This document shows positions 531 through 13,456 of a DNA stretch of 64,000 nucleotides, in pieces. The translations under genes and the position numbers were made by a program. The stretch comes from a virus, in the IMG/VR virus record IMGVR_UViG_3300035145_002419, positions 1 through 64,000 of that record. One strand, 5' to 3'. Below the pieces are notes generated by a model, which ran no database searches, was not told the origin of the DNA, and saw only the letters and a program-made list of their open reading frames with translations. Positions within the stretch are counted from its first letter, which is position 1, and every line of letters starts with the position of its first letter.

Positions 531-537
531 ACGAACT

Positions 538-720
538 ATGTTAGACTTGGACAAGATCACTCACGAACAAAAGGAGGCACTAGCAGAAGATTGTGAAGAC
601 TTTCTTCTGCATCGACATATACCACTCCATTCACATTCATACGATAACATCATCAACCAAGCGTTGCGTGAAGGTTATCAAATGTCCAGATTTGACCGTT
701 TCATCAACAAACCAAAATGA
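538..720 (+). CDS. Small unrecognised phage protein, 60 aa
   Basis: A start at 538 is chosen over an in-frame ATG at 502 because it avoids overlapping the upstream gene and begins 7 nt after its stop. The product is a short, probably helical hydrophilic protein with several His residues around positions 25-35. The stop overlaps the next ATG (ATGA). Unknown function. Confidence 0.55.
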   Translation: MLDLDKITHEQKEALAEDCEDFLLHRHIPLHSHSYDNIINQALREGYQMSRFDRFINKPK

Positions 721-833
721 CACAGAAAGAAATCGAAGAAACTGCGGATGAGTTCTGGAAAGAAGTTGAAAAGGAAGCAGCAAAACTTGAAGTTACTGTT
801 GATTACTACATGTTGGAATTTTTCTGTTCCTGA
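717..833 (+). CDS. Tiny acidic protein, 38 aa
   Basis: It starts with an ATGA overlap at 717-720 and ends at TGA 831-833. The first 26 residues are strongly charged (Glu/Lys) and probably form one helix; the tail is hydrophobic and ends in Cys-Ser. It is the last gene before a sigma70-type promoter. The coupling to its neighbour is the main support. Function unknown. Confidence 0.45.
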   Translation: MTQKEIEETADEFWKEVEKEAAKLEVTVDYYMLEFFCS

Positions 834-842
834 CATAACTGC

Positions 843-871
843 TTGACCAACAATAACATTTACACTAAAAT
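843..871 (+). promoter_or_regulatory. Host sigma70-type promoter
   Basis: TTGACC at 843-848, a 17-nt spacer and TAAAAT at 866-871. It precedes the run of overlapping genes that starts at 895. An AAGGAG at 873-878 lies at the expected transcription start and is too far (16 nt) from the ATG to be its ribosome site. Confidence 0.6.
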
Positions 872-894
872 TAAGGAGTAATTTACTGAAACCG

Positions 895-1134
895 ATGGCA
901 CCTAAGTTTTTCTACATTGTTGACCATTTTGTTCCATTTCCCACATCTGAGTATGGAGGAATTTGGAATGTTGTTGCAGAACATGATGATGAATGTTTTG
1001 ATCTAATTGTTGATGAAGATGATGGATTCAATGAAAAGTATTACAATCGCCTGCGTGAAAACATTATGAAAGCGCCAACATTTCAGTTAGCTAATGACCA
1101 TCAATCTGAGATTGTGGAGGAGTTTACTACATGA
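895..1134 (+). CDS. Small acidic unrecognised protein, 79 aa
   Basis: First gene behind the promoter at 843-871. The N-terminal half is aromatic-rich (FFYIVDHFVPF), followed by a very acidic stretch around residues 31-45. The stop overlaps the next ATG (ATGA), so this and the following three genes are probably one coupled translation unit. No domain recognised. Confidence 0.6.
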   Translation: MAPKFFYIVDHFVPFPTSEYGGIWNVVAEHDDECFDLIVDEDDGFNEKYYNRLRENIMKAPTFQLANDHQSEIVEEFTT

Positions 1135-1361
1135 AACCTGACATGATTGTTGGATGGAAAGAGCACATCAAAAAAGGTAATGTTTGGCGTGTTGAGTTAG
1201 AACTTTCCATGCAAGAAACGCCGGGTGAGTTTCACATATACAATGTGGAGGTTTATGTAACGGCACCTACATCAGCACTTGCAATGTATATTGTCACTAC
1301 AATGTATCCAGATTATGAATCCATTTCTGTTGATGATGAACCAGTTACAACTGCCCCCTGA
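1131..1361 (+). CDS. Small unrecognised protein, 76 aa
   Basis: The ATG overlaps the previous stop. It looks like a compact, probably beta-rich soluble protein (alternating VWRVELEL and YNVEVYVTAP segments). Its 3' end overlaps the start of the next gene in another frame. No function assigned. Confidence 0.6.
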   Translation: MKPDMIVGWKEHIKKGNVWRVELELSMQETPGEFHIYNVEVYVTAPTSALAMYIVTTMYPDYESISVDDEPVTTAP

Positions 1362-1647
1362 TTTTCCACACCAACCACCCGAAGGTTATCATTATGAAGT
1401 TGAATCGTTTCGACGTAATGTTTTACGCATTTGCATTGTCAATGATGGTTCTTTCTCCTATACTAATGTTGCACCTAAATGTGTATGGGGATTTGTTAAA
1501 ACGACAGGAAAGAATGGAAGCAGTAAGAAGACTTACCATGCCCCCATCAACTTCAATAAGGTAGGAAATGTGGTAGACATTAGTGATACTCGCCCCTATA
1601 CTGCAATGCAGTTAAATCTAAATCCATTAGAAGCGGCGTTTATATGA
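1336..1647 (+). CDS. Small unrecognised protein, 103 aa
   Basis: The open frame begins earlier, but the tandem ATGs at 1333 and 1336 give the least overlap with the upstream gene; 1336 is used. The product begins MNQLQLPPDFPHQPPEG, a Pro-rich head, followed by a beta-type body and a LNLNPLEAAF tail. The pattern reminds me of a conserved cyanophage hypothetical family, from memory only. The stop overlaps the next ATG. Confidence 0.6.
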   Translation: MNQLQLPPDFPHQPPEGYHYEVESFRRNVLRICIVNDGSFSYTNVAPKCVWGFVKTTGKNGSSKKTYHAPINFNKVGNVVDISDTRPYTAMQLNLNPLEAAFI

Positions 1648-1916
1648 CTCACTATATTCCACAGGTGAATGATTATGTTGCATGGAAAGAACATGAAGGT
1701 TGGGTATATTTTGCCTGTCCAGAATATATCAGTATTGAACTGAGTGTAAAGTGCAAGAATGATGAAAACATAAAACATTGTCCCCTCCATGAAAAAACAC
1801 ATTGTTTGCTTGTGTGTCAAAAGTGGTATTGGGATGAGTTAGAATACGTTAAAACTAGAAAGAATAAAAATGCGGGAAGTCTTGAAGATATGGAAGTATT
1901 CGTTAGGAAGTTTTAG
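1644..1916 (+). CDS. Small unrecognised protein, 90 aa
   Basis: ATGA overlap with the upstream gene. It opens with MTHYIPQVNDYVAWKEHEGWVYF, a Trp/Tyr-rich beta-type segment, and carries three Cys residues in the middle (including KHCPLHEKTHC) before a basic tail. The paired Cys/His spacing could bind a metal, but I see no known zinc-finger pattern. Unknown function. Confidence 0.6.
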   Translation: MTHYIPQVNDYVAWKEHEGWVYFACPEYISIELSVKCKNDENIKHCPLHEKTHCLLVCQKWYWDELEYVKTRKNKNAGSLEDMEVFVRKF

Positions 1917-1918
1917 CG

Positions 1919-2017
1919 ATGATAAAACAGAACCATATGACAACTATGTGGTTCTCATACGCAGCATTATATTTGTATCTTATCTTATTACTAATTGTTT
2001 TATTATTAGCGGAGTAA
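1919..2017 (+). CDS. Single-pass membrane peptide, 32 aa
   Basis: It starts 2 nt after the previous stop with a good ribosome site (AGGAAG at 1905-1910, 8 nt before ATG). Residues 13-31 are an almost unbroken hydrophobic helix (YAALYLYLILLLIVLLLA). A longer overlapping frame (1870-2106) exists but lacks a ribosome site and overlaps two genes. A small inner-membrane peptide of an early region; function unknown. Confidence 0.5.
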   Translation: MIKQNHMTTMWFSYAALYLYLILLLIVLLLAE

Positions 2018-2029
2018 TTCGTCACTGGA

Positions 2030-2176
2030 ATGAAGTACCAAGTTATCTACCAACAACCGAAAAAGAAAGGATTTGCAACACAGAAGGCAACATTCTTCAA
2101 GATTGAAGATGCAGTTTTTTGGGAAGAACTAATGAAGAAAAATGGTTGTAAAGACTTTGAAACTCATGTAAGTTAA
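2030..2176 (+). CDS. Small basic protein, 48 aa
   Basis: ATG at 2030, TAA at 2174-2176. The sequence begins MKYQVIYQQPKKKGFATQKATFF: a short strand, a Lys-rich patch, then a probable helix. It ends 3 nt before the first copy of the conserved TTACTCACC element, as most last genes in these blocks do. Function unknown. Confidence 0.5.
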   Translation: MKYQVIYQQPKKKGFATQKATFFKIEDAVFWEELMKKNGCKDFETHVS

Positions 2177-2179
2177 ATA

Positions 2180-2218
2180 TTACTCACCTCTAAAGTGTAT
2201 CAGTAACGTAAGCATCAC
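2180..2218 (+). promoter_or_regulatory. Conserved intergenic element, copy 1
   Basis: TTACTCACCTCTAAAGTGT core followed by CGTAAG and a terminal CAC. It lies directly after a stop codon and 4 nt before the next ATG. A member of the nine-copy family discussed in the findings; promoter or operator role is inferred, not shown. Confidence 0.6.
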
Positions 2219-2221
2219 ATT

Positions 2222-2359
2222 ATGGACAACTACCTGACAGAACAACAAGTCGAAGAACTTGTAAACTTTGACTACATGGAAGAAGATCTTGAAGATCTTA
2301 TCCAAGACCCAGAAAAACTTGACATCAACGATTATCTTAACTCCAACATCGACTACTGA
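2222..2359 (+). CDS. Very acidic small protein, 45 aa
   Basis: First gene behind element copy 1. It is rich in Asp and Glu with almost no basic residue (EEDLEDLIQDPEKLDINDYL), so it could mimic nucleic acid or bind a basic partner; that is speculation. It is separated by one base from the next gene. No homology recognised. Confidence 0.5.
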   Translation: MDNYLTEQQVEELVNFDYMEEDLEDLIQDPEKLDINDYLNSNIDY

Positions 2360-2360
2360 A

Positions 2361-2582
2361 ATGAATTTTCCTACCGAAACTGTCAACGTGCTTGCACACC
2401 TTCAAGAACTGCGTAAGACTTGGAAAGACCAAGATTTTCGCTTGACAAAGGATCAGCAGCAACAATATGATATGTTGATGCAAGCACGAAAGGAACGTGT
2501 TGCATGGTTCTATGAAACTGGACGTGTGCAAGTTGGACCTAAAGTGACTAAGGAAAAAGAAAAAGAACAAGAAGAAGAATGA
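2361..2582 (+). CDS. Small charged helical protein, 73 aa
   Basis: A start at 2361 is preferred to the in-frame ATG at 2268, which lies inside the preceding gene. It is a predicted long helix (residues 10-50, rich in Gln, Lys, Arg, Glu) ending in a Lys/Glu run (KVTKEKEKEQEEE). It is the last gene before a strong terminator. Function unknown. Confidence 0.55.
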   Translation: MNFPTETVNVLAHLQELRKTWKDQDFRLTKDQQQQYDMLMQARKERVAWFYETGRVQVGPKVTKEKEKEQEEE

Positions 2583-2676
2583 TACAAACACCGGGGTTTC
2601 CACTACTCTGACTTAGAAGCAGAGACCATGAAGTGGTGTAAAAGAATAATTTAAGTTGATGCAACACCCATTCCAA

Positions 2677-2710
2677 TCTCCTGCTATTCTAAATAGTAGG
2701 AGATTTTTTT
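2677..2710 (+). terminator. Rho-independent terminator
   Basis: A 12-bp stem (2677-2688 with 2692-2703, one G-T pair) with a 3-nt loop, followed by seven T residues. It closes the early block and insulates the basic internal-protein gene at 2720. Confidence 0.85.
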
Positions 2711-2719
2711 GTAGATAGA

Positions 2720-3382
2720 ATGAAGACGTACATTCAGTTTATTACTGAAGTCTATGACAAAGATGTCATGGATCGTTCACAGATCAGCAAGACTGGTGAA
2801 GGTGGACGTGTGGGTGCTGATAGAAGAAAAAGTGAACCCGAACGCCGTAGAATGAAAGCAGTTGGTGGTGGTAAAATGGTGCCAGCAGCACCATATAAGG
2901 ATCGCAAAGATATTGGAACACAAAGACAAAGAAGCACACGCGAACAACAACCCGAGCAGGAACGTGGTAGTGTTGAAGTTAAAAAGACATACGCTGATAA
3001 AGTTAAAGAACGCAGAGTTGCAGCAGCAAGAGCACGGGCAGCAGCAAAAGCATCTGGTGGTAGTGATAAAGTAGCAAAAAGTTCTGTAGCAAAAGCATCA
3101 CAAGATGTAGAAAAACAAGCAGACAAGTTGTTAGCAACCAAGAAGAAAGAAGAACCTAAAAAGTCATCAACACCACGTCGTAATTGGAAAACTGACAGTG
3201 GTGGTGGAATGACAAGAAAGGAACGTGATTCTGCTAGAAATAAAGAAAAAGGTGCAGCACTGAAGTTAAAGAAAGCAGAATTAGTTCGGGACTTCACTGA
3301 GAAGAATGGTCGCCCACCAAAGGGTGCAGAACGCACAAGACTTCTGGGACTTGCACACAAGGCAGTAAAAGCAGGCATTTAA
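2720..3382 (+). CDS. Putative internal head protein with T4-like capsid-targeting peptide, 220 aa
   Basis: The N-terminus MKTYIQFITE closely resembles the capsid-targeting peptide of T4 internal proteins (MKTYQEFIAE). Ile8-Thr9-Glu10 fits the I/L-x-E cleavage rule of the gp21 prohead protease, which is encoded at 54856. The remainder is extremely rich in Lys, Arg, Ala, Gln and Ser with no hydrophobic core: an alanine-rich helical stretch near residues 95-115 and a basic C-terminus. This fits a DNA-condensing protein packaged in the head and injected with DNA. It lies between a terminator and a conserved element, not in the virion cluster. The targeting role is inferred from the motif. Confidence 0.6.
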   Translation: MKTYIQFITEVYDKDVMDRSQISKTGEGGRVGADRRKSEPERRRMKAVGGGKMVPAAPYKDRKDIGTQRQRSTREQQPEQERGSVEVKKTYADKVKERRVAAARARAAAKASGGSDKVAKSSVAKASQDVEKQADKLLATKKKEEPKKSSTPRRNWKTDSGGGMTRKERDSARNKEKGAALKLKKAELVRDFTEKNGRPPKGAERTRLLGLAHKAVKAGI

Positions 3383-3385
3383 AAG

Positions 3386-3424
3386 TTACTCACCTTGAAA
3401 GTGTATCCATAGTGTAAGCATCGT
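3386..3424 (+). promoter_or_regulatory. Conserved intergenic element, copy 2 (divergent)
   Basis: TTACTCACCTTGAAAGTGT core with CATAGT and GTAAGC downstream. It starts 3 nt after the stop of the basic protein gene. Unlike other copies it is followed at once by a terminator-like hairpin rather than by a start codon. Confidence 0.5.
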
Positions 3425-3425
3425 C

Positions 3426-3468
3426 AGCACCCTTTACAAGCGTCTGTAAGGGTGCTATTATTATTTTT
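3426..3468 (+). terminator. Terminator or attenuator hairpin upstream of the helicase
   Basis: AGCACCCTTTACA (3426-3438) pairs with TGTAAGGGTGCT (3445-3456), 12 bp with one bulged T and a 6-nt loop, followed by a T-rich ATTATTATTTTT tract. It sits between element copy 2 and the GTG of the helicase gene, so it could end upstream transcripts or attenuate the helicase. Confidence 0.65.
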
Positions 3469-3483
3469 AGGTATCAACCCACT

Positions 3484-4680
3484 GTGACTTCATTGATTAC
3501 ACTTCGTCCGCATCAGATTCGCATCCTTGATCGTATGCGGAACTACAACAAAGGTCAGATCATTGTTCCCACTGGTGGTGGTAAAACAATGTGCATGATT
3601 CAAGATACTGCACATTCGCAACAATCTAAGTGTGGTCTTACCACTGTTGTTGTTGCTCCCCGCATACTTCTTGCTGAACAGTTGTGCAGTGAATTTCTGG
3701 AAGTAATTGATACTGCATATACGCATGTGATGCACGTTCACAGTGGTGAAACGTCACACTTCTCTACAACAAATGTAGAAAACATCAACCTGTTCGTAAA
3801 TACAGCAAGGACTGCTGGTGAGAATGTTATCATCTTCACTACATATCACTCCTTGCATCGTATTCAGGAGGCAGATGTTGAAGTCAATACGATTTACTTT
3901 GATGAAGCACATAACAGCGTGCAAAGAAACTTTTTCCCTGCTACAAAACACTTTGCTGCTGTTGCTGATCGTTGCTACTTCTTCACTGCTACTCCTAAGC
4001 ATTCTCTTACTGTTTCTAAACCTGGAATGAATGATGGATCTGTTTATGGTCAGGTCTTGGTCAATGTTCCTGCACCTGAGTTAGTTGAACAGGGTTACAT
4101 TCTCCCTCCCAAAGTTGTAGTCAAGCAACTGCCTTTGGTGAAAGGTCGTAAGGTCATGTATGCAGAGGATGCTGACAATCTGCTGGAAACTATCGATGAC
4201 AATAACATCGACAAGACTCTGATTTGTGCTCGTACCACAAAGCAGATTGTTGGTCTTATATCACAATCAGACTTCTGTGCTGAGTTGTATCAACGTGGTT
4301 ATTCTTGGATGACAATCACATCTAAGACTGGTGCAATTATTGATGGCAAGAAGGTTGACCGTGAAAAGTTCTTCGACACGTTGAACACTTGGGGTCGTGA
4401 TCCTGACAAGAAGTTTGTAGTTATTCACCACAGCATTTTGTCTGAAGGTATCAATGTGTCTGGTCTTGAGGCAGTCATTTTCATGCGTAATATGGACTAC
4501 ATTGGTATCAGTCAGTCTATCGGTCGTGTGATCCGTCTGGGTGGATCTGAGAAGACGTTTGGGTTAGTTTGTGTGCCAACATATGACTCGGTTGGTATCA
4601 GCACTGCCAAAAAAGTTCAGGCAGTTGTTGATGTCGTGTTCAATCAGGGACAACCTGCCATCAGTGAAATTCGTCGATGA
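3484..4680 (+). CDS. Superfamily 2 DNA/RNA helicase, 398 aa
   Basis: An ATP-dependent nucleic-acid helicase or translocase. Visible motifs: the Q-region LRPHQ near residue 8, Walker A PTGGGKT with Lys34, DEAH at 140-143, motif III FTATP at 167, and motifs V/VI in SEGINVSGLEAVIF and QSIGRVIRLG. The two-domain length fits a minimal SF2 enzyme related to UvsW-like helicases, but it lacks UvsW's extra N-terminal domain; the true UvsW is at 59532. It starts with GTG and has no strong ribosome site. Its role in early takeover or replication is inferred. Confidence 0.85.
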   Translation: MTSLITLRPHQIRILDRMRNYNKGQIIVPTGGGKTMCMIQDTAHSQQSKCGLTTVVVAPRILLAEQLCSEFLEVIDTAYTHVMHVHSGETSHFSTTNVENINLFVNTARTAGENVIIFTTYHSLHRIQEADVEVNTIYFDEAHNSVQRNFFPATKHFAAVADRCYFFTATPKHSLTVSKPGMNDGSVYGQVLVNVPAPELVEQGYILPPKVVVKQLPLVKGRKVMYAEDADNLLETIDDNNIDKTLICARTTKQIVGLISQSDFCAELYQRGYSWMTITSKTGAIIDGKKVDREKFFDTLNTWGRDPDKKFVVIHHSILSEGINVSGLEAVIFMRNMDYIGISQSIGRVIRLGGSEKTFGLVCVPTYDSVGISTAKKVQAVVDVVFNQGQPAISEIRR

Positions 4681-4685
4681 CAAAG

Positions 4686-4724
4686 TTACTCACCTCCAAA
4701 GTGTCCCAGTTGTATAAGCAACAC
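4686..4724 (+). promoter_or_regulatory. Conserved intergenic element, copy 3
   Basis: TTACTCACCTCCAAAGTGT core, then TATAAG and a terminal ACAC matching GTGT across 16 nt. It begins 5 nt after the helicase stop and ends 4 nt before the next ATG. Confidence 0.65.
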
Positions 4725-4728
4725 TAAA

Positions 4729-5067
4729 ATGTTCGTAACTCAAACCAAACCACAGTTCCTGACCGAAGCACTCATTGAAGTGCTGAACAATGAATGGAAA
4801 GTTCTTTCACTTGAAAATGGTCGTTCTGTTTATACTCAACTTGAGTATGAAGTGGGTCGCAAGTATATTAAAGTTTGGTCTTATCTTGTCGGTGATGAGG
4901 GTAGAATCAGGGGACGTTCTTGCTGGATGTTCGTTGATAAGAACTATGGTGAATGTTACAAACCAGCATCATACAAAGCACCTGCAAAAGGTGTCCGCTA
5001 TCTGATCACTCAACTGGCAGATAATCCCCATATTTGTGATCCTTACGGTTCGTTCCTGTATCTTTGA
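4729..5067 (+). CDS. Unrecognised protein, 112 aa
   Basis: The ATG lies 4 nt downstream of element copy 3. A soluble, mixed alpha/beta protein with a Tyr/Trp-rich core (KYIKVWSYLVG, SCWMFVDKNYGECYK). It overlaps the start region of the next gene. I do not recognise the family. Its position in the element-controlled array suggests early or middle expression. Confidence 0.6.
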   Translation: MFVTQTKPQFLTEALIEVLNNEWKVLSLENGRSVYTQLEYEVGRKYIKVWSYLVGDEGRIRGRSCWMFVDKNYGECYKPASYKAPAKGVRYLITQLADNPHICDPYGSFLYL

Positions 5068-5069
5068 TT

Positions 5070-5330
5070 ATGTTCGCTGACACCAATCGTCAACTTCGTA
5101 AACTTTCTATCTACAAACCAATGCAATTTCGTGTGACTGAGATTGACTTTGATTTTGATTCTGATTCCTTTGATGAAGAAGTAATGGACACCGAAGATCG
5201 TCAAGAAATTATTGATGAAGTTCTAGCAACAACTTGGCAAGCAAGTGATGCTGATGATCTTGTGGAGGAGATTACATCTGCCACAGGTTGGTGCGTTAAT
5301 TCTATCGATTACATTTACATTCTGAACTGA
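5070..5330 (+). CDS. Very acidic unrecognised protein, 86 aa
   Basis: ATG at 5070 is preferred to an upstream TTG at 5064 because it lies just after the previous stop. Residues 20-50 are an Asp/Glu run (DFDFDSDSFDEEVMDTEDRQE). The rest looks helical. No motif recognised; the acidic surface could mimic nucleic acid, which is speculation. Confidence 0.6.
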   Translation: MFADTNRQLRKLSIYKPMQFRVTEIDFDFDSDSFDEEVMDTEDRQEIIDEVLATTWQASDADDLVEEITSATGWCVNSIDYIYILN

Positions 5331-5334
5331 AACC

Positions 5335-5502
5335 ATGATTACTTCCAAAGCACAAATGATCCGCATCATGAAAAAATGTGATGGGGCAGATACATTAACC
5401 CGTGAACAAAAGTTTCAAGTCTTTGTCAACGTGTGCGATAACATGTTGAAGGAAGGTAGAATGACCAAAGCAACACATAAACGTTTCACGGAGATCTGGT
5501 GA
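5335..5502 (+). CDS. Small basic helical protein, 55 aa
   Basis: ATG at 5335 follows the previous stop by 4 nt; TGA at 5500-5502 overlaps the next ATG (TGATG). The protein is basic and predicted all-helical (MIRIMKKCDGADTLTREQKFQVF then a second helix). It could be a small helical-bundle regulator, but no DNA-binding motif is clear. Confidence 0.5.
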   Translation: MITSKAQMIRIMKKCDGADTLTREQKFQVFVNVCDNMLKEGRMTKATHKRFTEIW

Positions 5503-5711
5503 TGATTGAAGATGTCACAAATTCACCAAAAGATTGGGAAGATTTTTGGTACTCACCTGAAAAATATGGTTCTTGGGAGTATTACAATTCAGAAAGCGAA
5601 GGGCGTGACATTCGTAACATCGACCCCAATACATTACGCTACGTTGAGTATGTTATGGGTGATAGACCTTACCCACCTGCGTTCAAGCGTGGTTCAAGAT
5701 TAAGCGATTAA
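5502..5711 (+). CDS. Small unrecognised protein, 69 aa
   Basis: ATG at 5502 overlaps the preceding TGA; a GTG at 5499 is an alternative. It is rich in Trp, Tyr, Ser and Asp with a Pro-rich end (MGDRPYPPAFKRGSR). It ends 4 nt before element copy 4. Function unknown. Confidence 0.55.
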   Translation: MIEDVTNSPKDWEDFWYSPEKYGSWEYYNSESEGRDIRNIDPNTLRYVEYVMGDRPYPPAFKRGSRLSD

Positions 5712-5715
5712 AAAG

Positions 5716-5754
5716 TTACTCACCTCCAAAGTGTCCTAGTTGTATGAAAAACAC
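5716..5754 (+). promoter_or_regulatory. Conserved intergenic element, copy 4
   Basis: TTACTCACCTCCAAAGTGT core, then CCTAGTTGTATGAA and a terminal ACAC. The ATG of the next gene (5744) lies inside the element. Confidence 0.65.
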
Positions 5755-6643
5755 CCACCTCGAACACCCCGAAGACGCTATCCTAACAGGCGATCTGTCT
5801 GTTCTGGATTGGTTTTCTGAACCCGATAGTTTCATCAGCACCAAAATGGATGGTGCTCCTGCTATTGTTTGGGGCACTAATCCTGCAACTGGTAAATTCT
5901 TTGTTGGCACTAAAAGTGTCTTCAACAAAGTAAAGATCAAGATCAACGAATCACACGGTGATATTGATCGCAATCATTCTGGATCTGTTGCTGATATATT
6001 ACATCATTGTCTTGATTATCTTCCCGACTTTAAGGGAATTATTCAAGGTGATTTTATTGGTTTCGGTGGTAGTGACACTTACACGCCAAATACTATCACA
6101 TATAAGTTTCCGAATGTAGTCACTGAAGAGATCATTATTGCACCGCATACTTATTACACTGCGGACAATGATTTGCGTGATGCTGTTGCTCAACCGATGA
6201 AGTTTCGGATCACTGATACTTTCTATTGCAAGTTTGTGCAACCTAAAGTGTTGCTAACTGAAAATCGTGAAGATATTGCTGATGTCTGTGAATTTGCCCG
6301 CCAGATGTCTACATTGTGTGAATTTGTAGATGACAAGAAAGCAGCAAAGATCAAGAAGGCAATCAATACGATGATTCGCAATGGTGCTGAATTAGATGAT
6401 TTTGCAATTTCAGTTTTTGCTGACTGTGACATCAATCTAGTCAGATTGTGGAAGTTGGTTGCAACAATCAAAGCAGATTTGTTTTTGTTTATTCATTCAA
6501 CTGACGATATTGAATGTTCTATCTGTGGACATGAAACGTTTCATGAAGGTTATGTAATCACAAACAAGTATGGCATGTTCAAGGTAGTTGACCGCGAAGA
6601 ATTTTCATATGCTAACTTCAACGTTCAGAAAAGTTGGTCCTGA
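5744..6643 (+). CDS. Divergent ligase-fold nucleotidyltransferase-like protein, 299 aa
   Basis: The sequence shows an ordered set of motifs resembling ATP-dependent ligases and capping enzymes: KMDGAP with Lys34 (motif I, the candidate AMP-accepting lysine), GKFFVGTKS nearby, GIIQGDFIG (motif III-like, with Asp for the usual Glu), HEGYVIT at 267 (motif IV) and FKVVDR with Lys280 (motif V). A CSIC pair precedes motif IV. The Arg normally following KxDG is replaced by Ala-Pro. It may belong to a T4-like phage family of unknown function (DUF6267, from memory). Substrate unknown. The start is fixed upstream of the catalytic lysine by ATG 5744, which lies inside element copy 4. Confidence 0.55.
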   Translation: MKNTHLEHPEDAILTGDLSVLDWFSEPDSFISTKMDGAPAIVWGTNPATGKFFVGTKSVFNKVKIKINESHGDIDRNHSGSVADILHHCLDYLPDFKGIIQGDFIGFGGSDTYTPNTITYKFPNVVTEEIIIAPHTYYTADNDLRDAVAQPMKFRITDTFYCKFVQPKVLLTENREDIADVCEFARQMSTLCEFVDDKKAAKIKKAINTMIRNGAELDDFAISVFADCDINLVRLWKLVATIKADLFLFIHSTDDIECSICGHETFHEGYVITNKYGMFKVVDREEFSYANFNVQKSWS

Positions 6644-6649
6644 TAAAAG

Positions 6650-6688
6650 TTACTCACCTCCAAAGTGTCCTAGTTGTATGAATGACAC
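6650..6688 (+). promoter_or_regulatory. Conserved intergenic element, copy 5
   Basis: Same core as copy 4. GTGTC and GACAC form a 5-bp dyad around the TATGAA segment. The next ATG (6678) is inside the element. Confidence 0.65.
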
Positions 6689-6839
6689 TACCTACAACGA
6701 GATCTTAAAGGTCTGGAACTACGAAACACCTGACGATTTTGCAATCTTCAGTGAACTTTACTACCAGATGTTCGGTGAGGATTTTGACATTCCTTACACA
6801 ACAGAATCCACCACTTCTTCTTTCTTTCCCTACGATTGA
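6678..6839 (+). CDS. Small acidic protein, 53 aa
   Basis: The open frame extends upstream, but ATG 6678 lies in the element exactly where three other genes start, giving the N-terminus MNDTT. The product is acidic and aromatic (ELYYQMFGEDFDIPYTTE). Function unknown. Confidence 0.5.
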   Translation: MNDTTYNEILKVWNYETPDDFAIFSELYYQMFGEDFDIPYTTESTTSSFFPYD

Positions 6840-6841
6840 TC

Positions 6842-6973
6842 ATGCGAATCTTTTTTCTTGCCTTGTTTGTTATTCTTGGTGCTAATCTTGGCATTGAATT
6901 GTTAGATAGCAACATGACACAAATTATCAAAGATCGCAACCAAACTATTCAACGTTCTATCAACAACCTTTGA
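6842..6973 (+). CDS. Small membrane-anchored or secreted peptide, 43 aa
   Basis: Residues 3-20 (IFFLALFVILGANLGIEL) form a hydrophobic segment after Met-Arg, like a signal anchor. The C-terminal half is polar and ends in Asn-Leu. It begins 2 nt after the previous stop and ends 2 nt before the next ATG, consistent with a tightly packed operon. Possibly an inner-membrane host-interaction peptide; not recognised. Confidence 0.5.
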   Translation: MRIFFLALFVILGANLGIELLDSNMTQIIKDRNQTIQRSINNL

Positions 6974-6975
6974 TC

Positions 6976-7239
6976 ATGAAACTGTATCATCCCGAGCACA
7001 CTATTCAGGTTGATTTCTATCCTGTCAAGTATAGTGACGGAACGATTAGTGAAAGGTTAATCTACAAGACTGTAACTTTCGGTATCAATGGACCGAACCC
7101 AGTTGTCAGCAAGCGTTACATCAACCGCAAAGAAATGAATCGCGAGATTGATAGTCGCGTTCATGGATTTGGGTATGAAATAGTTGACTTTCACACTGAT
7201 CCACAACTATACAACAGCGCACTTACTTGTGCCTGCTAA
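6976..7239 (+). CDS. Small unrecognised protein, 87 aa
   Basis: ATG 6976 chosen over TTG 6970. A beta-rich soluble protein (YHPEHTIQVDFYPVKYSDGT, LIYKTVTFG) followed by a basic segment and a Cys-x-Cys end. It sits in the block behind element copy 5. No family recognised. Confidence 0.55.
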   Translation: MKLYHPEHTIQVDFYPVKYSDGTISERLIYKTVTFGINGPNPVVSKRYINRKEMNREIDSRVHGFGYEIVDFHTDPQLYNSALTCAC

Positions 7240-7266
7240 TTATTCTAATCTTATTTTCACACTAAA

Positions 7267-7431
7267 ATGACTGACAACCTTGAAATGTTGACCCAACGTG
7301 AACAACTAATGGAGGACATTGATTCTATTGTTGAATCATACTTATGTGGTAGCAATGTTAGATCTTTTGAGGTAGAAGAATTGGTCCGCATTTTATGTGA
7401 TTCTGTTTGCAAAAACTTTCCCATTAACTAA
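7267..7431 (+). CDS. Small acidic helical protein, 54 aa
   Basis: Starts at ATG 7267 after a 27-nt gap; its TAA overlaps the next ATG (TAATG at 7429-7433). It is rich in Glu, Leu, Val and Ser, with two Cys residues near the C-terminus. Probably helical. Function unknown. Confidence 0.5.
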   Translation: MTDNLEMLTQREQLMEDIDSIVESYLCGSNVRSFEVEELVRILCDSVCKNFPIN

Positions 7432-7637
7432 TGTCCTTTATTTCTTTTCCCACTGATCCTAACACCATGAATCGTTCCGAACTTCAACAAAACCTTGTCG
7501 ATTGCATTGTTGATGGTATGGATATGGAGATGCTATGTCAACTTGCATGTGATGCACTTTCCACAACTTATGATGGTTATTCTGATTCAGAATTGATGGA
7601 AGAAGTAAAAGAATACTACCCACATTTGTTGGATTAA
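7431..7637 (+). CDS. Small acidic helical protein, 68 aa
   Basis: TAATG overlap with the upstream gene. The sequence after residue 13 (MNRSELQQNLVDCIVDGMDMEMLCQLACDAL) is a predicted helical bundle similar in flavour to the preceding 54-aa protein. Many T4-like phages carry such small acidic proteins; I cannot assign a role. It ends 3 nt before element copy 6. Confidence 0.55.
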   Translation: MSFISFPTDPNTMNRSELQQNLVDCIVDGMDMEMLCQLACDALSTTYDGYSDSELMEEVKEYYPHLLD

Positions 7638-7640
7638 AAG

Positions 7641-7679
7641 TTACTCACCTCCAAAGTGTCCTAGTTGTATGAATAACAC
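7641..7679 (+). promoter_or_regulatory. Conserved intergenic element, copy 6
   Basis: Core identical to copies 4, 5 and 7. The ATG of the next gene (7669) lies inside it. Confidence 0.65.
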
Positions 7680-7845
7680 ACTTTTTTCCGAAACCAACCT
7701 GACTGAACTTCAGGATTTTATGTTCGACACTATGTTACCTGCTGGTGATTGTGTTGATTGGTTCTGCGATCGTCACGATGTTAGTGCAACTGACGACGTG
7801 ATTGATTTTGTTGTTGATGCACACTTTGCCTTCTTCGGAGAGTGA
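7669..7845 (+). CDS. Small acidic protein, 58 aa
   Basis: ATG 7669 lies in the element, giving the N-terminus MNNT shared with the gene at 8375. It is acidic and aromatic (DWFCDRHDVSATDDVIDFVVDAHFAFFGE). TGA at 7843-7845. Its GGAG near 7838 serves as ribosome site for the next gene. Function unknown. Confidence 0.5.
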   Translation: MNNTLFSETNLTELQDFMFDTMLPAGDCVDWFCDRHDVSATDDVIDFVVDAHFAFFGE

Positions 7846-7850
7846 TACCA

Positions 7851-8051
7851 ATGCAAGAAACTAAGTTCGATCTTTACGGCGAGTTTATTCGCCCCAATGG
7901 TCATCAACAGTATGACATTCTGAGTTACCTTGCCGAGACAAGAGAGGAGGCAATCGCTACATGTAAGCGCCTCAATCCTTACTTCCACATTATCACAATT
8001 CGGGTAGATAATACAAAACCTGAAGTTGTAAAACTCCAATCTTTAATCTGA
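7851..8051 (+). CDS. Small unrecognised protein, 66 aa
   Basis: ATG 7851 has a GGAG 9 nt upstream; a GTG at 7842 overlapping the previous stop is the alternative. The pattern beta-strand, turn, helix with many Ala/Arg/Glu, strand (YLAETREEAIATCKRLNPYFHIITIRV) resembles small ferredoxin-like folds seen in early phage proteins. No function assigned. Confidence 0.55.
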   Translation: MQETKFDLYGEFIRPNGHQQYDILSYLAETREEAIATCKRLNPYFHIITIRVDNTKPEVVKLQSLI

Positions 8052-8056
8052 AACTA

Positions 8057-8344
8057 ATGAATTACACACTCAAAGAACTTCGCGATCGTGTCAACAAAAT
8101 GATCGAACAACAAGGTGAAGATGCACACTGTGGTGCATGGATCTACACAAAAGAAGATTGTCACTTAAAGGATGAAGATGGCAACATTGATTGTGATAGC
8201 ACAGTAAAAGATCCTGATGTTATTGAGCGCATCTTCGATGATGTTGGCAACATTGATTACATCTACCAAGTCATTCAAGAATGTGTAGATGAAGTCACTG
8301 AAGAACAATGGATGCAGTATCAACAAGAATTGTATGGTTCTTAA
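8057..8344 (+). CDS. Acidic unrecognised protein, 95 aa
   Basis: Begins 5 nt after the previous stop. It has an N-terminal helix (LKELRDRVNKMIEQQGEDA) and then an acidic segment with repeated GNIDxDxx and GNIDYIY patterns. It ends 2 nt before element copy 7. No catalytic motif. Function unknown. Confidence 0.6.
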   Translation: MNYTLKELRDRVNKMIEQQGEDAHCGAWIYTKEDCHLKDEDGNIDCDSTVKDPDVIERIFDDVGNIDYIYQVIQECVDEVTEEQWMQYQQELYGS

Positions 8345-8346
8345 AG

Positions 8347-8385
8347 TTACTCACCTCCAAAGTGTCCTAGTTGTATGAATAACAC
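8347..8385 (+). promoter_or_regulatory. Conserved intergenic element, copy 7
   Basis: Core identical to copies 4-6, starting 2 nt after a stop codon. The ATG of the next gene (8375) lies inside it. Confidence 0.65.
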
Positions 8386-8599
8386 TTCCACGATGATCCA
8401 AGACGATACGATCAAAGCAAAGTCCATCCTGAAGCAGATTCAAGGATGCAAAGTTGAAGATGATAACAACAATCGATATGAGGTTGTTGATGTTAAATGC
8501 TTCAACGGTCAAGTTCGTTTCATTGGACTAAAAGATTCCGATGGCGTTATCAAGTATGCTAGCGAGAATTGCTACATGTCAATGGCAGATGTTGCCTGA
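8375..8599 (+). CDS. Small beta-rich protein, 74 aa
   Basis: Starts inside element copy 7 with MNNTST. After an N-terminal helix it shows CKVEDDNNNRYEVVDVKCFNGQVRFIGLKDSDG, alternating strands that look like a small SH3- or OB-like barrel. This is a fold guess only. Function unknown. Confidence 0.55.
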   Translation: MNNTSTMIQDDTIKAKSILKQIQGCKVEDDNNNRYEVVDVKCFNGQVRFIGLKDSDGVIKYASENCYMSMADVA

Positions 8600-8623
8600 T
8601 CCGTACACTTTTCTTTTTTAATC

Positions 8624-8875
8624 ATGCTTCGCAAAATCACAGTTCATTCTGAAAATTCCATTCGCTTCACACCTGAAGCAAAGGAAATCACCCAACAATT
8701 AAATGAATATCGCCGTGCAAATGGTGAGGTTTCGTTGAAAGAAATGGCAAAAATCTTTGGTCTGAGAGAGACAAATTGTGCCAACTATTACTATGGCAAG
8801 CATCACTATGTTGGTGGATATTATAATGGTGTCAATTACACACAAATGCGCAAGGGTGCATGTGTTGACCTTTGA
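8624..8875 (+). CDS. Small basic protein with possible helix-turn-helix, 83 aa
   Basis: Residues 30-55 (GEVSLKEMAKIFGLRETNCANYYYG) read like a helix-turn-helix: a helix, a Gly turn and a second helix. The following Tyr/Gly/His-rich tail is unusual. It could be an early DNA-binding regulator; this is inference from pattern only. It ends 19 nt before element copy 8. Confidence 0.55.
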   Translation: MLRKITVHSENSIRFTPEAKEITQQLNEYRRANGEVSLKEMAKIFGLRETNCANYYYGKHHYVGGYYNGVNYTQMRKGACVDL

Positions 8876-8894
8876 ATTTATCAACGCATTAAAG

Positions 8895-8932
8895 TTACTC
8901 ACCTCCAAAGTGTCCTTATAGCATAGGGACAC
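8895..8932 (+). promoter_or_regulatory. Conserved intergenic element, copy 8
   Basis: TTACTCACCTCCAAAGTGT core with TATAGC following and a perfect 6-bp dyad GTGTCC...GGACAC, the strongest dyad of the family. Confidence 0.65.
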
Positions 8933-8967
8933 CCACCGATCCCAATTCATTTCACAAACAAACAAAC

Positions 8968-9321
8968 ATGCGTAAGATTGAAGAACAGATGATTGCTGCC
9001 ATCAAGAACAGTCAAGACTGGCAATCTGCTAACACTTCTGTTCACTTTAATGAAGAAGAAAATGCTTCTATTGTTCGCCTTCATGGACACAAGATTGCTG
9101 AGGTTGGTGATGACTATCTGACACTGTTCGATGGCGATCATCAGACAAAAACTACAAAGTCACGATTGAACGCAATTCTTGGTGAGTTCGGTTATACTTG
9201 CGGAACCAAGCGCGAGTATATTTTCCAGAAGCAATATGAATGGTTCCTTAACTTCTTCAATCCACTGTCTGATCAGATTGAAGTCATTCCTTTTGTTGAT
9301 GGCATGATGCTTCCTGGTTGA
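8968..9321 (+). CDS. Unrecognised protein, 117 aa
   Basis: The sequence (MRKIEEQMIAAIKNSQDW, then NTSVHFNEEENASIVRLHGHKIAEV, FDGDHQTKTTKSRLNAIL) matches my memory of a family repeated in several cyanophage genomes, with a central beta-sheet and TTKSRLNA signature. No catalytic residues stand out. It lies 36 nt downstream of element copy 8. Biochemical role unknown. Confidence 0.65.
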   Translation: MRKIEEQMIAAIKNSQDWQSANTSVHFNEEENASIVRLHGHKIAEVGDDYLTLFDGDHQTKTTKSRLNAILGEFGYTCGTKREYIFQKQYEWFLNFFNPLSDQIEVIPFVDGMMLPG

Positions 9322-9384
9322 ATTTGTATAGTCCTGAGTATGACTTAAAACTACTCACATATCCTCACTGTTTAACATTTTTTC

Positions 9385-9519
9385 ATGTCTAGAGAGATTG
9401 CCTTTGGTCTGCTGAATCTTGCCGGTAATGGTAACGAGATTCTTTCCATTTTGGATGTTATCGAGTCGAGCGATTGCGCTGCTGATAATGACACTGAAGG
9501 AGGCGACATGATGGATTGA
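9385..9519 (+). CDS. Tiny acidic protein, 44 aa
   Basis: ATG 9385, TGA 9517-9519. The segment LAGNGNEILSILDVIESS resembles small cyanophage proteins with the NGNEILSILD signature (memory, unverified). It lies between a degenerate element-like CTACTCACA at 9351 and a terminator. Function unknown. Confidence 0.5.
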   Translation: MSREIAFGLLNLAGNGNEILSILDVIESSDCAADNDTEGGDMMD

Positions 9520-9530
9520 AGGTAACAACG

Positions 9531-9557
9531 AAAAGGGGTGATTTTTGCCCCTTTTTT
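9531..9557 (+). terminator. Rho-independent terminator
   Basis: AAAAGGGG (9531-9538) pairs with CCCCTTTT (9548-9555), with a 9-nt loop and further T residues. It closes the left-hand small-gene array. Confidence 0.85.
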
Positions 9558-9828
9558 GCACAAATATATAAAGATTATGCTTTTTTTATATTAAAAAAGG
9601 TTTTTTAAATGTATTTGTGTTGTTTGTATCGATCACTGAAAGTATCTACAAAGGTGCCCTGAATACGCTGCAAAGTATCTACAAAGGTGCTGCAAAGGTG
9701 TTCTGGGGTAGTGATCTTAGCGTGCAGTCTATCACATCCGCGCAGAAATGTCAACGACCCGCTGATAGCAAATCCTGACAGATCATCGCAAAATTGATAG
9801 GACTTTCTGATAAATACAACGACTGATA
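9558..9828 (+). other. Non-coding stretch: AT-rich tract plus repeats
   Basis: About 330 bases without a convincing gene extend to 9886. The first 55 bases are extremely AT-rich (poly-T and poly-A runs). They are followed by 19-nt direct repeats and then ordinary-composition sequence leading to a consensus promoter at 9829. Only short unsupported open frames occur. Confidence 0.6.
9639..9690 (+). repeat. Two 19-nt direct repeats, 33-nt period
   Basis: AAAGTATCTACAAAGGTGC occurs at 9639-9657 and 9672-9690, with a third partial copy (CAAAGGTG) at 9693-9700. The copies are perfect, lie outside genes and directly follow an AT-rich tract. Confidence 0.8.
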
Positions 9829-9857
9829 TTGACAGTCTAACAGTCTTATTCTATACT
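9829..9857 (+). promoter_or_regulatory. Consensus sigma70 promoter
   Basis: TTGACA at 9829-9834, 17-nt spacer, TATACT at 9852-9857. It is followed by a gene at 9887 with GGAG 9 nt before its ATG. Confidence 0.85.
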
Positions 9858-9886
9858 GTAAAAGTATCACCAGCGGAGCACCAATC

Positions 9887-10060
9887 ATGTCAGCAGTCTA
9901 CTCAGAAGCACGGAAGGCGCGGTATCGTATCACCCTGGATCTGGACGTTCTTGGTGATTTTGATCCGCACAATATCAGTTGGGACAAGTTGTTTCAGTTG
10001 GAAGGTTCGGAACACTGCGAAGCATATGTAGAGGATCTATCTACACCTGACCGCTGGTAA
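9887..10060 (+). CDS. Small unrecognised protein, 57 aa
   Basis: Start supported by GCGGAG upstream and by the promoter at 9829. The product is acidic after a basic N-terminus (SEARKARYRITLDLDVLGDFD). The codons are visibly more GC-rich (cgg, gcg, ctg) than in neighbouring blocks, suggesting a different origin or strong expression. It ends 15 nt before element copy 9. Function unknown. Confidence 0.6.
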   Translation: MSAVYSEARKARYRITLDLDVLGDFDPHNISWDKLFQLEGSEHCEAYVEDLSTPDRW

Positions 10061-10075
10061 TCCGTCGGGTGGTTA

Positions 10076-10113
10076 TTACTCACCTCTAAACTGTTCTTAT
10101 AGTGTAAGCACAC
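10076..10113 (+). promoter_or_regulatory. Conserved intergenic element, copy 9
   Basis: TTACTCACCTCTAAACTGT with TATAGT and GTAAGC downstream, ending in CAC. It is the most distant copy from the main cluster and precedes the gene at 10122. Confidence 0.55.
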
Positions 10114-10121
10114 GTTTCTGA

Positions 10122-10520
10122 ATGTCCTATCAAGTCACACAATCCTTCTACAAAGTTGACAAGCGCGGCAATCACAAACTTATCAGTGAAGGCACGGTAA
10201 TTACCAATGCTGAGTATCTGAAACTGAATGCCATTAAGCGTGCGAAATGTGAGTATGTAGAACCCACAAAACGTCAGGTCCCACTATCACAAGACGAGGC
10301 AGATGATCTGGTCTATCTGTATCTTAACGTTGCAGATCTAAATGAGATTCTGACCACGTTTCTGACAGAGTATCCAAAGCGCGTATCTGAGGGTATTGAA
10401 TGTCAGTTACGTATCATCGCTGGTTGTGATAATACGCGACCAAATGATGGTGGATTGCGTAACCCTGGCAAGGCATTATTGCGTGCTATGATCACACAAG
10501 ACCCTGCGCGGTTTGTGTGA
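10122..10520 (+). CDS. Unrecognised protein, 132 aa
   Basis: Follows element copy 9 by 8 nt. The N-terminal 40 residues look beta-rich (YQVTQSFYKVDKRGNHKLISEGTVI). The middle is a helical pair (LSQDEADDLVYLYLNVADLNEILTTFLTEYP) and the end is basic. Codon use is GC-richer than in the flanking genes. I recognise no domain. It may have been acquired together with the gene at 9887. Confidence 0.6.
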   Translation: MSYQVTQSFYKVDKRGNHKLISEGTVITNAEYLKLNAIKRAKCEYVEPTKRQVPLSQDEADDLVYLYLNVADLNEILTTFLTEYPKRVSEGIECQLRIIAGCDNTRPNDGGLRNPGKALLRAMITQDPARFV

Positions 10521-10547
10521 TTTAGCAGTCTATGTGTGCTTCGGTGG

Positions 10548-10576
10548 TTGACACTGGGGCACGCATATGTTATGAT
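10548..10576 (+). promoter_or_regulatory. Consensus sigma70 promoter
   Basis: TTGACA at 10548-10553, 17-nt spacer, TATGAT at 10571-10576. The nearest open frame behind it is the 33-aa one at 10583; the next clear gene is at 10727. Confidence 0.8.
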
Positions 10577-10582
10577 CAGTTT

Positions 10583-10684
10583 ATGCGTATTTGGCAGTAT
10601 TTGTGCGGTTCGTTGTTGATGCCCGGCGGGCGTAGCGGTGCCCCGTATATAAAAAAGGTTAACTACCCTAACCTACAGAGGTGA
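10583..10684 (+). CDS. Possible 33-aa peptide behind a strong promoter
   Basis: An ATG 6 nt after the -10 box opens a 33-codon frame rich in Gly, Pro, Arg and Leu. There is no ribosome site, and the mRNA would be nearly leaderless. The base composition is GC-rich compared with its surroundings. It may be an untranslated leader instead. Confidence 0.25.
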   Translation: MRIWQYLCGSLLMPGGRSGAPYIKKVNYPNLQR

Positions 10685-10726
10685 CAATTCGACCTTTCAA
10701 TATCATTCTAAAAAAAATTTTCCGCC

Positions 10727-10867
10727 ATGAAAAAATCACCTTATTGGTCTTTTTGGAAAGTAGTATTTGCTGGGTGGTTAATCAGATATCCAGGTAAATT
10801 TATTCGCCCCCTTGGAGTAGTGATTGGGTTTGCAATAGTGCTGATATATAATGCGTTATCAAATTAG
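10727..10867 (+). CDS. Small membrane protein, 46 aa
   Basis: Sequence: Lys-Lys start, aromatic amphipathic segment (YWSFWKVVFAGWLIRYPGKF), then a hydrophobic helix (LGVVIGFAIVLIYNAL). It is likely a single-pass inner-membrane peptide with a basic cytoplasmic face. It ends 5 nt before the next ATG, whose AGGAG site overlaps the stop. Transcribed from the promoter at 10548 by position. Confidence 0.5.
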   Translation: MKKSPYWSFWKVVFAGWLIRYPGKFIRPLGVVIGFAIVLIYNALSN

Positions 10868-10872
10868 GAGAT

Positions 10873-11094
10873 ATGACAAAAAATTCCGTAGAAAAAATTC
10901 AACCTACAAAGGTTTATCACATCTATGCAAAGGATGAATGTTTATATAATAATCTAAGTGAAAGTCAATTTAATAATAAATGGGAAACCCTCAAAGGAAT
11001 GGTTGGTTTAATGAAAACTGATTATGAAATTGAGGATTTGTCATATGAAGAGGTAGAGTTAATACGACATACCACAGATGAACATTCATATTGA
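10873..11094 (+). CDS. Small unrecognised protein, 73 aa
   Basis: A strong AGGAG lies 5 nt before the ATG. The segment NLSESQFNNKWETLKGMVGLMKTDYEIEDLSYEEVE is helical and acidic and is reminiscent of a recurrent cyanophage hypothetical (unverified). Its stop overlaps the -35 box of the next promoter. Function unknown. Confidence 0.6.
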   Translation: MTKNSVEKIQPTKVYHIYAKDECLYNNLSESQFNNKWETLKGMVGLMKTDYEIEDLSYEEVELIRHTTDEHSY

Positions 11095-11119
11095 CAAGGT
11101 ATAGATAGACTGTTAAAAT
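11091..11119 (+). promoter_or_regulatory. Consensus sigma70 promoter for the glycosyltransferase operon
   Basis: TTGACA at 11091-11096 (overlapping the TGA of the upstream gene), 17-nt spacer, TAAAAT at 11114-11119. The next ATG is at 11143. Confidence 0.8.
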
Positions 11120-11142
11120 TGAACTGAAAGTTATTTTCAACT

Positions 11143-11910
11143 ATGGCAAAAGGATTTACTGTTAAAGCTGCTGCACCTAAGAAGAAGGAAGCAGAGTATG
11201 ATATTGATGCAATCAAAGCACGAATGAAAGGAAAGACAATTGTATTTTGTCTTCCAGGTCGTGGATGTAGTTTTACATTTCTGAAGAACTTTGTACAACT
11301 GTGCTTTGATATGGTACAGAATGGAATGAGTATTCAGATCAGTCAAGATTATTCTTCTATGGTCAACTTTGCACGTTGTAAAGTATTGGGTGCAAATGTT
11401 CTTCGTGGACCTAAGCAAGTACCTTGGGATGGAAAACTTCCATATGATTATCAACTGTGGATTGATAGTGACATTGTGTTTAACACAGAAAAGTTCTGGC
11501 AACTGTGCGATCTAGCAGTTCCTGCAGAAGGTGAGGAACGTCCGATCAGTGCTGGATGGTATGCAACAGAAGATGGGCACACAACCTCAGTAGCACACTG
11601 GTTGGAAGAAGATGACTTCCGTCGTAATGGTGGTGTGATGAATCATGAGACTGTTGAATCCATCAGTAAGCGTAAGAAACCCTTTACAGTTGACTACACA
11701 GGATTTGGATGGGTATTGATTAAGAAGGGTGTATTTGAAGATCTTGAATACCCTTGGTTTGCACCGAAGATGCAAGTATTTGAATCTGGTGCTGTTCAGG
11801 ACATGTGTGGTGAAGATGTATCATTCTGTCTTGATGCAAAAGAAGAAGGCTTTGAAATCTGGTGTGACCCTAAGATTCGTGTGGGTCACGAAAAGACTCG
11901 GGTAATTTGA
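11143..11910 (+). CDS. GT-A type glycosyltransferase, 255 aa
   Basis: Predicted to transfer a sugar from a nucleotide donor. After a Lys/Ala-rich N-terminal extension, the fold starts at TIVFCLPGRGCSFTFLKNFVQLC. Asp108-Ser-Asp110 in LWIDSDIVF is the metal- and nucleotide-binding DxD motif. GFGWVLIKKGVFE and GEDVSFCLDAKEEGFEIWCDPKIRVGH are the acceptor side and C-terminal His seen in this class. T4-like marine phages often carry such enzymes; the target (DNA, virion or host surface) is unknown. It leads an operon with the short genes that follow. Confidence 0.75.
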   Translation: MAKGFTVKAAAPKKKEAEYDIDAIKARMKGKTIVFCLPGRGCSFTFLKNFVQLCFDMVQNGMSIQISQDYSSMVNFARCKVLGANVLRGPKQVPWDGKLPYDYQLWIDSDIVFNTEKFWQLCDLAVPAEGEERPISAGWYATEDGHTTSVAHWLEEDDFRRNGGVMNHETVESISKRKKPFTVDYTGFGWVLIKKGVFEDLEYPWFAPKMQVFESGAVQDMCGEDVSFCLDAKEEGFEIWCDPKIRVGHEKTRVI

Positions 11911-12050
11911 CAACACTACACATCATATGCACTAAGTGTGGTGGTAAATGTTGTAAGCACTGTCATAAAGGATGGCAGTGCATGGGACCAAATTGTAAAA
12001 AATGTAAAATCTTTGGAGAACTAAAACATGGCAATGATGAAAGGCGGTAG
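11907..12050 (+). CDS. Cys-rich zinc-ribbon-like peptide, 47 aa
   Basis: Begins with TTG overlapping the preceding TGA (TTGA) and ends at TAG 12048-12050. It has two CxxC-type clusters and further Cys/His (CTKCGGKCCKHCHKGWQC, then NCKKCKIF): nine Cys in 47 residues, so metal binding is likely. No ATG start is available at a useful place, so the call rests on composition and overlap. The end overlaps the next gene. Confidence 0.45.
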   Translation: MTTLHIICTKCGGKCCKHCHKGWQCMGPNCKKCKIFGELKHGNDERR

Positions 12051-12780: not shown

Positions 12781-12785
12781 ATGTA

Positions 12786-13451: not shown

Positions 13452-13456
13452 AAATA

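Follow-up and report, generated by a model that had tools for sequence, protein, structure and literature searches.

The 64,000-nucleotide (nt) window analysed here, the first 64,000 bases of a 75,984-base virus record (IMGVR_UViG_3300035145_002419), carries an array of small genes punctuated by nine copies of a conserved intergenic element. With moderate confidence, and from sequence evidence, these elements are best explained as early promoters served by a DNA-binding activator that is made late, packaged in the virion and injected. The -35 region of each promoter would be replaced by a 12-nt operator (the ‘box’) for a phage DNA-binding protein, the product of the gene at 2720-3382 (the ‘factor’). 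A late promoter of its own would drive late production of the factor, which an N-terminal capsid-targeting sequence (CTS) would then bring into the head, to be injected together with the DNA. Its C-terminal two-helix domain would next bind the boxes and recruit host RNA polymerase, which would read the shared -10-like TAGTRTRA, to some ten small-gene promoters as the next infection begins. Because the box and the domain that would read it change jointly between lineages, each phage is likely to have its own promoter specificity.

The nine copies lie on the + strand at the coordinates given in the first-pass annotation (Table 1), with 0-2 mismatches to the 19-mer TTACTCACCTCCAAAGTGT, the first T of which is taken as position 0. 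Shuffled windows gave a mean of 0.04 matches to this sequence and never reached nine, and no further copy was found in the 76-kb record. The window copies have profile scores of 38-59; a degenerate copy that had been suspected at 9350 was rejected, the best nearby score being -63, which ranks 270 on the + strand. Close spacing after stop codons was borne out, with peaks at -9 and -5. The TAtRAR-like hexamer is also real, its best register being T24-A-G-T-R-T29. The reported extent of 39 nt falls short, since 540 unique copies show conservation between -8 and about +37 of the 19-mer, amounting to ~60 bits. The GTGT-N16-ACAC dyad did not hold up: complementarity is about that of re-paired arms (101 versus 94 ± 3 for CTCACC-type copies, 77 versus 81 ± 3 for others), and where the left arm reads GCGT or CTGT the right arm is still ACAC rather than ACGC or ACAG.

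The best BLAST neighbours of the window are T4-like Synechococcus phages, and the element belongs to a family spread amongst such viruses. Exact matches to the 19-mer were found in at least 117 viral contig stretches, with several in the same contig in many cases. The bacterial genome set gave one match, in a Bacteroidia metagenome-assembled genome, which is about the chance expectation for 257 billion bases. The element consists of a constant half, AAAGYGTCC..TAGTRTRA, and the variable box, and a scan with the constant half that was blind to the box gave 173 unique copies, mostly with still other boxes. The ‘invariant’ 19 nt are thus invariant within the lineage of the window, but in related phages positions 0-11 are replaced wholesale. 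About ten box types are found between phages, with near uniformity inside each phage: the within-locus Hamming distance between boxes is 1.31 of 12, against 6.03 ± 0.07 after shuffling (127 loci with at least three copies), and each of these loci has all its copies on the same strand. Orthologous first genes carry the box of their own phage, so that the 81 copies in front of the DUF6267 ortholog cluster represent 10 box types. The element of SynMITS9220M01 is nearly the same as that of the window, and S-B05 and RB11-B retain the window's box with GTCC shifted. S-SM2 has GGGGGGTCGCCT at positions 0-11 and retains AAAGYGTCC..TATAGTRTRA; its box is GGGGGGTCG, as opposed to CTCACC in SynMITS9220M01, and that of P-TIM68 is GTTAGTTACCTCT.

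The small-gene array, arranged around a UvsW-like helicase gene and ahead of gp25/gp6, is common to the isolates. In the complete genomes of SynMITS9220M01, S-SM2 and P-TIM68 all 12 copies are in the array and none elsewhere, in agreement with the earlier remark that the element avoids virion genes. An exception is S-B05, where two elements lie at 156 kb, ~1 kb from that phage's factor gene (154,660), the main array being at 31-40 kb. Other elements are found instead in Syn9, Sf-CH5, Bellamy and P-TIM40.

The anatomy of the element makes it likely, with good confidence, that it is a promoter. The box (0-11) is followed by 12 bp and then by the -10-like TAGTRT at 24-29, a spacing that is the same in S-B05, S-SM2 and P-TIM68. 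If TAGTRT is the -10 hexamer, then the box spans about -36 to -25 and transcription is predicted to start at 34-36. Apart from an ATG at position 28 (ATG28), hardly any start codons fall at positions 31-42 and most cluster in a peak at 43-49, which fits a transcription start near 34-36, and in P-TIM68 a Shine-Dalgarno-like AAGGA directly follows the predicted start. A/T-rich tracts 11 bp apart, resembling an UP element, lie upstream of the CTCACC-type copies. The sigma-70 -35 hexamer is absent from the elements, and Rfam and tRNA searches gave no match.

The C-terminus of the factor is very probably matched to the box, as judged from their co-variation. Across 69 dereplicated loci, C-terminal distance correlates with box distance with a rho of about 0.55 (0 of 1000 permutations as high) and, in sliding windows, of up to 0.59, while the N-terminus hardly tracks the box. 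Rho was no higher than 0.19 for eleven other array families. A partial Mantel analysis controlling for UvsW, DUF6267, other neighbours or the factor's own N-half left a correlation of 0.52-0.61, again unequalled in 1000 permutations; UvsW, DUF6267 and the other neighbours themselves hardly correlate with the box. Mutual information links mainly residues 166-174 to box positions 3-8, and residues 187-211 to positions -1 to 3, a roughly ordered map. The residue following TxxER, counted by regular expression and then by alignment column, is D in all 38 factors from CTCACC loci but in only 1 of 32 from loci with other boxes. The same correspondence was seen out of sample, in 46 unseen C-termini from new loci collected by protein homology alone: D goes with CTCACC in 19 of 19 cases and with no other box, M with GTWACC (10 of 10), R or Q with TGWRGC (8 of 8), K with GGGWCG (2 of 2) and L with SGATCG (1 of 1), whilst A occurs in two loci, with CTTAGC and CTCAGC. 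Two single-cell virus records fit as well, ERK occurring with GGGGGGTCGC and ERQ with ACTGAAGCGTCT. The earlier proposal of a promoter class with a phage-encoded factor and a box other than that of MotA is supported by this co-variation with one phage protein domain together with the promoter geometry.

The factor has an N-terminus reading MKTYIQFITE, a basic middle part and a folded C-terminal domain (residues ~151-220) with the motif TRKERD. AlphaFold2 gave a confident model only for residues 151-220 (pLDDT, the predicted local distance difference test score, of 85-94; two helices), the remainder being mostly of low confidence. No Pfam or PHROG family was found for the protein, nor any match in a profile search of the PDB. 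In a comparison of complete genomes, only three protein families are shared by SynMITS9220M01, S-SM2, S-B05 and P-TIM68 while missing from each of Syn9, Sf-CH5 and Bellamy; the factor, whose gene lies inside the array, is one of the three. It occurs amongst isolates in six element-carrying phages, as well as in two single-cell viruses, and homologs accompany each of the main box types. The stretch of P-TIM40 examined showed none. The 221-residue protein encoded before gp25 (12786-13451) was considered as the regulator and set aside, having no DNA-binding family and no Pfam match; different sources label this product PurM, ferredoxin or transcriptional regulator.

Several features suggest that the factor is made late. 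The late-promoter-like CTAAATA ahead of its gene sits in the loop region of an intrinsic-terminator-like hairpin (Table 1), so that read-through from early transcription would be halted here and late transcription initiated. CTAAATA serves as a late promoter in Aeh1, a T4-like phage (PMC1524935), and is close to NATAAATA of S-PM2 (PMC2984593). Of 77 factor genes, 52 have the late motif upstream, in nearly every case at 29-33 nt, compared with 5.6% of control open reading frames. In the new loci the figures are 20 of 33, versus 6 of 1534 positions taken at random; where the motif is missing, NATAAATA is mostly present near the same place.

The factor N-terminus resembles a capsid-targeting sequence. 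Of 93 homologs, 91 begin M[KR][TSQ][FYLI]xxF, and most have E at residue 10 or 12; in T4 IPIII, residues 4 and 7 are the key ones for targeting and residues 8 and 10 those for processing (PMC9026906). T4 packages its internal proteins, which gp21 cleaves, and ejects many of them into the host (PMC9026906), where Alt acts at once on the host RNA polymerase (PMC2988021). By this analogy, and from anatomy, packaging, injection and activation taken together are somewhat more probable than not. We infer that the factor binds the box directly and that it acts as infection starts. The earlier label ‘middle-type’ finds no support, since a factor that looks late-made and virion-packaged could act as soon as infection begins. 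In other proteins of ~400 residues, a CTS-like start, MKSxFQFLxEA, marks candidates for further internal head proteins (S-SM2 130761, Bellamy 144781, Sf-CH5 110572).

A number of observations weigh against an injected activator of early promoters. The most awkward is that about half of all copies, and 4 of the 9 in the window, have ATG28 inside the -10-like sequence, in the frame of the gene in 377 of 403 copies (93.5%). A transcript starting near +35 would then have no start codon unless read-through supplied it, and 168 of 413 have no further in-frame ATG within codons 5-11. Read-through from an upstream copy could supply these starts. In addition, 5 of the 9 window copies have the hexamer TTGTAT, which is without the key A; five of the eleven other array families correlate weakly with the box (rho 0.10-0.18); and the loci are not fully independent. 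Late-like motifs in the arrays of SynMITS9220M01 and P-TIM68 are not clearly rarer than elsewhere, and the factor is not in the deposited S-B43 record although elements are present.

The explanation that competes best, although an unlikely one, is that the reader of the box is correctly identified but acts otherwise, as a late-made repressor of the early promoters or as a head protein that organises or protects DNA. The late look of the gene and the basic character of the protein would suit either role, and a protein sitting at -36 to -25 could block polymerase. The stoperators of mycobacteriophages, a repressor system with cluster-specific repeated sites, provide a precedent. However, without a sigma-70 -35 hexamer the elements would be weak unless activated, and a repressor, if injected, would silence the genes needed first. 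Pure packaging sites, for their part, would need neither a -10-like hexamer at fixed spacing, nor a single orientation, nor a zone from which start codons are excluded.

Rather improbable is an RNA-level element, that is, a site for translation initiation, processing or antitermination that happens to precede start codons. The in-frame ATG28 and the 168 copies lacking a second in-frame ATG speak for it. However, there is no conserved secondary-structure pairing and no Rfam family, and TAGTRTRA is kept where the gene starts 43-115 nt away. Amongst the copies with in-frame ATG28, 57% have a second in-frame ATG at 40-58, a strong enrichment that is expected if the promoter has its own start codon there. 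The class C elements that occupy the same slot have a clear TATAAG. A leaderless or T7-like promoter starting at ATG28, considered in view of the in-frame ATG, was not adopted, there being no -10 at 6-7 nt upstream, and is also disfavoured by the sigma-70-like geometry that the class C elements keep.

Two further explanations are very improbable. If the elements were ordinary host sigma-70 early promoters, with the box read by the host RNA polymerase or a host regulator, then the -10-like hexamer and the UP element-like tracts would be accounted for, but not a box that is wholly different between phages and follows one phage protein domain rather than its neighbours. Alternatively, the elements might be mobile cassettes like promoter early stem-loops (PeSLs), kept uniform through gene conversion and lacking a cognate factor, the factor gene and boxes being exchanged together. 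The single foreign box in each of four mixed loci (L080, L240, L147 and L225) is in keeping with this, as is the shuffling that PeSLs mediate in T4-like phages, as cited in PMC4503421. Yet neighbours in the same array (UvsW, DUF6267 and others) are almost uncorrelated with the box, and of the factor itself only the C-terminus tracks it.

Table 1. Elements, factor gene and associated signals in the window
Feature	Coordinates	Strand	Details
Element copy 1	2172..2216	+	box TTACTCACCTCT 2180-2191; -10-like TAACGT 2204-2209; predicted start ~2214-2216
Intrinsic-terminator-like hairpin	2675..2705	+	14 pairs, T tail; longest stem among the candidates in positions 1-14200
Late-promoter-like CTAAATA	2689..2695	+	31 nt before factor gene
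Proposed box-reading factor gene	2720..3382	+	220 residues
Element copy 2	3378..3422	+	box TTACTCACCTTG 3386-3397; -10-like TAGTGT 3410-3415; hairpin and uvsW-like helicase gene (3484-4680) downstream
Element copy 3	4678..4722	+	box 4686-4697; -10-like TTGTAT 4710-4715; next start codon ATG 4729
Element copy 4	5708..5752	+	box 5716-5727; ATG of DUF6267 gene (5744-6643) within -10-like sequence
Element copy 5	6642..6686	+	box 6650-6661; ATG 6678 within -10-like sequence
Element copy 6	7633..7677	+	box 7641-7652; ATG 7669 within -10-like sequence
Element copy 7	8339..8383	+	box 8347-8358; ATG 8375 within -10-like sequence; second in-frame ATG 8393
Element copy 8	8887..8931	+	box 8895-8906; -10-like TAGCAT; upstream of Kyano_Gp96 gene (8968-9321)
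Element copy 9	10068..10112	+	box TTACTCACCTCT 10076-10087; -10-like TAGTGT; upstream of gene 10122-10520

Some neighbouring features deserve mention. The hairpin GCACCCTTTACAAGCGTCTGTAAGGGTGC lies between copy 2 and the uvsW-like gene (3426-3454), and the same GCACCCTTTA follows the corresponding element copy of SynMITS9220M01 (L128:6428); because of this second occurrence, a conserved stem-loop is probable at the 5' end of the uvsW transcript. The DUF6267 gene is among the most conserved of the array, and its start is nearly always ATG28; by eye, the STKMDG of its product in the window resembles the KxDG motif of nucleotidyltransferase ligases. Foreign or mixed single boxes were noted within otherwise uniform arrays (L080:7248, L240:1430, L147:8971, L225:6128, L181:3606, L169 and L015), possibly as recent imports of promoter-gene cassettes. 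The deposited genomes of S-B05 (L133) and S-B43 (L401) look rearranged or incomplete, and tail-fibre genes interrupt the array of S-B43.

Other phages have a repeated promoter-like element in the equivalent array slot, with TGTATTCTATAAGAGTCAAAGG preceded by GTGTCCAC or GTGGCAC (Syn9, L127/L129; Bellamy, L130; Sf-CH5, L253; S-SCSM2R, L251; Sf-FS3, L252), and may use a different regulator. A third element type, the strong inverted repeat GTGACAGTTGTATTAGTGTCAC followed by TTGAC..TATAAT-like sequences, stands before small genes in P-TIM40 (L400:20303-23790), and a run of ~12-nt repeats (TGTC.ATGGC..) lies in or near the small-gene array of S-SKS1 (L254:17080-17400).

T4-like cyanophages are abundant ocean viruses, and how their early and middle genes are activated without MotA and AsiA, homologues of which are absent from cyanomyoviruses, has been described as unclear (PMC2984593). 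The present analysis puts forward a candidate factor together with its sites and a testable protein-DNA code, all encoded in the cultured phages S-SM2, SynMITS9220M01, P-TIM68 and S-B05. The wider proposition, that there is a family of virion-injected, sequence-specific activators with a fast-switching recognition code and that each cyanophage packages its own, which on injection flags the early promoters of that phage for the host polymerase, has about an even chance of being right. If true, promoter specificity may also separate co-infecting phages. A natural series of matched operators and readers would help in studying the evolution of DNA-binding specificity, and its pairs would be a source of orthogonal promoters and activators for cyanobacteria.

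The middle promoters of T4, where MotA and AsiA appropriate sigma, are alike in that a box replaces the -35 region 12-13 bp before the -10, a likeness of sequence geometry only; the MotA box lies at -35 to -26, 13 bp upstream of the -10 (PMC2988021). Its consensus, (a/t)(a/t)TGCTT(t/c)a at about -30, is not matched by the window box TTACTCACCTCC, and other lineages have unrelated boxes. Moreover, the box here varies between lineages, and the factor is unrelated to MotA and looks late-made and packaged. With the T4 internal proteins IPI, IPII and IPIII and with Alt the factor shares a CTS-like N-terminal motif. Those proteins act on restriction enzymes or modify polymerase chemically, and none is described in the papers cited here as a sequence-specific promoter activator (PMC9026906, PMC2988021). 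Phage N4 delivers a virion RNA polymerase that directs early transcription, as outlined in PMC4496689; whereas N4 injects the polymerase itself, here a small DNA-binding protein would redirect that of the host.

The PeSLs are similar as repeated regulatory cassettes in plastic small-gene regions, but the present elements have no general stem-loop, the only conserved hairpin being that after copy 2, and their specificity tracks a protein domain. An early-gene regulatory element of Syn9 and P-TIM40 was reportedly described by Doron et al. in 2016. It, too, would be repeated before small genes of T4-like cyanophages, and the Syn9 array is syntenic with that of the window; however, the repeats found in the arrays of Syn9 (TCGTGTATTCTATAAGAGTCAAAGG) and P-TIM40 differ from the window element, and the factor is absent from Syn9. 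A sequence-specific, fast-switching factor that joins MotA-box-like promoters to injected head proteins would appear to be new. Its strategy has an analogue in VP16 of herpes simplex virus, an unrelated protein that is likewise delivered by the virion and activates the first genes of the virus.

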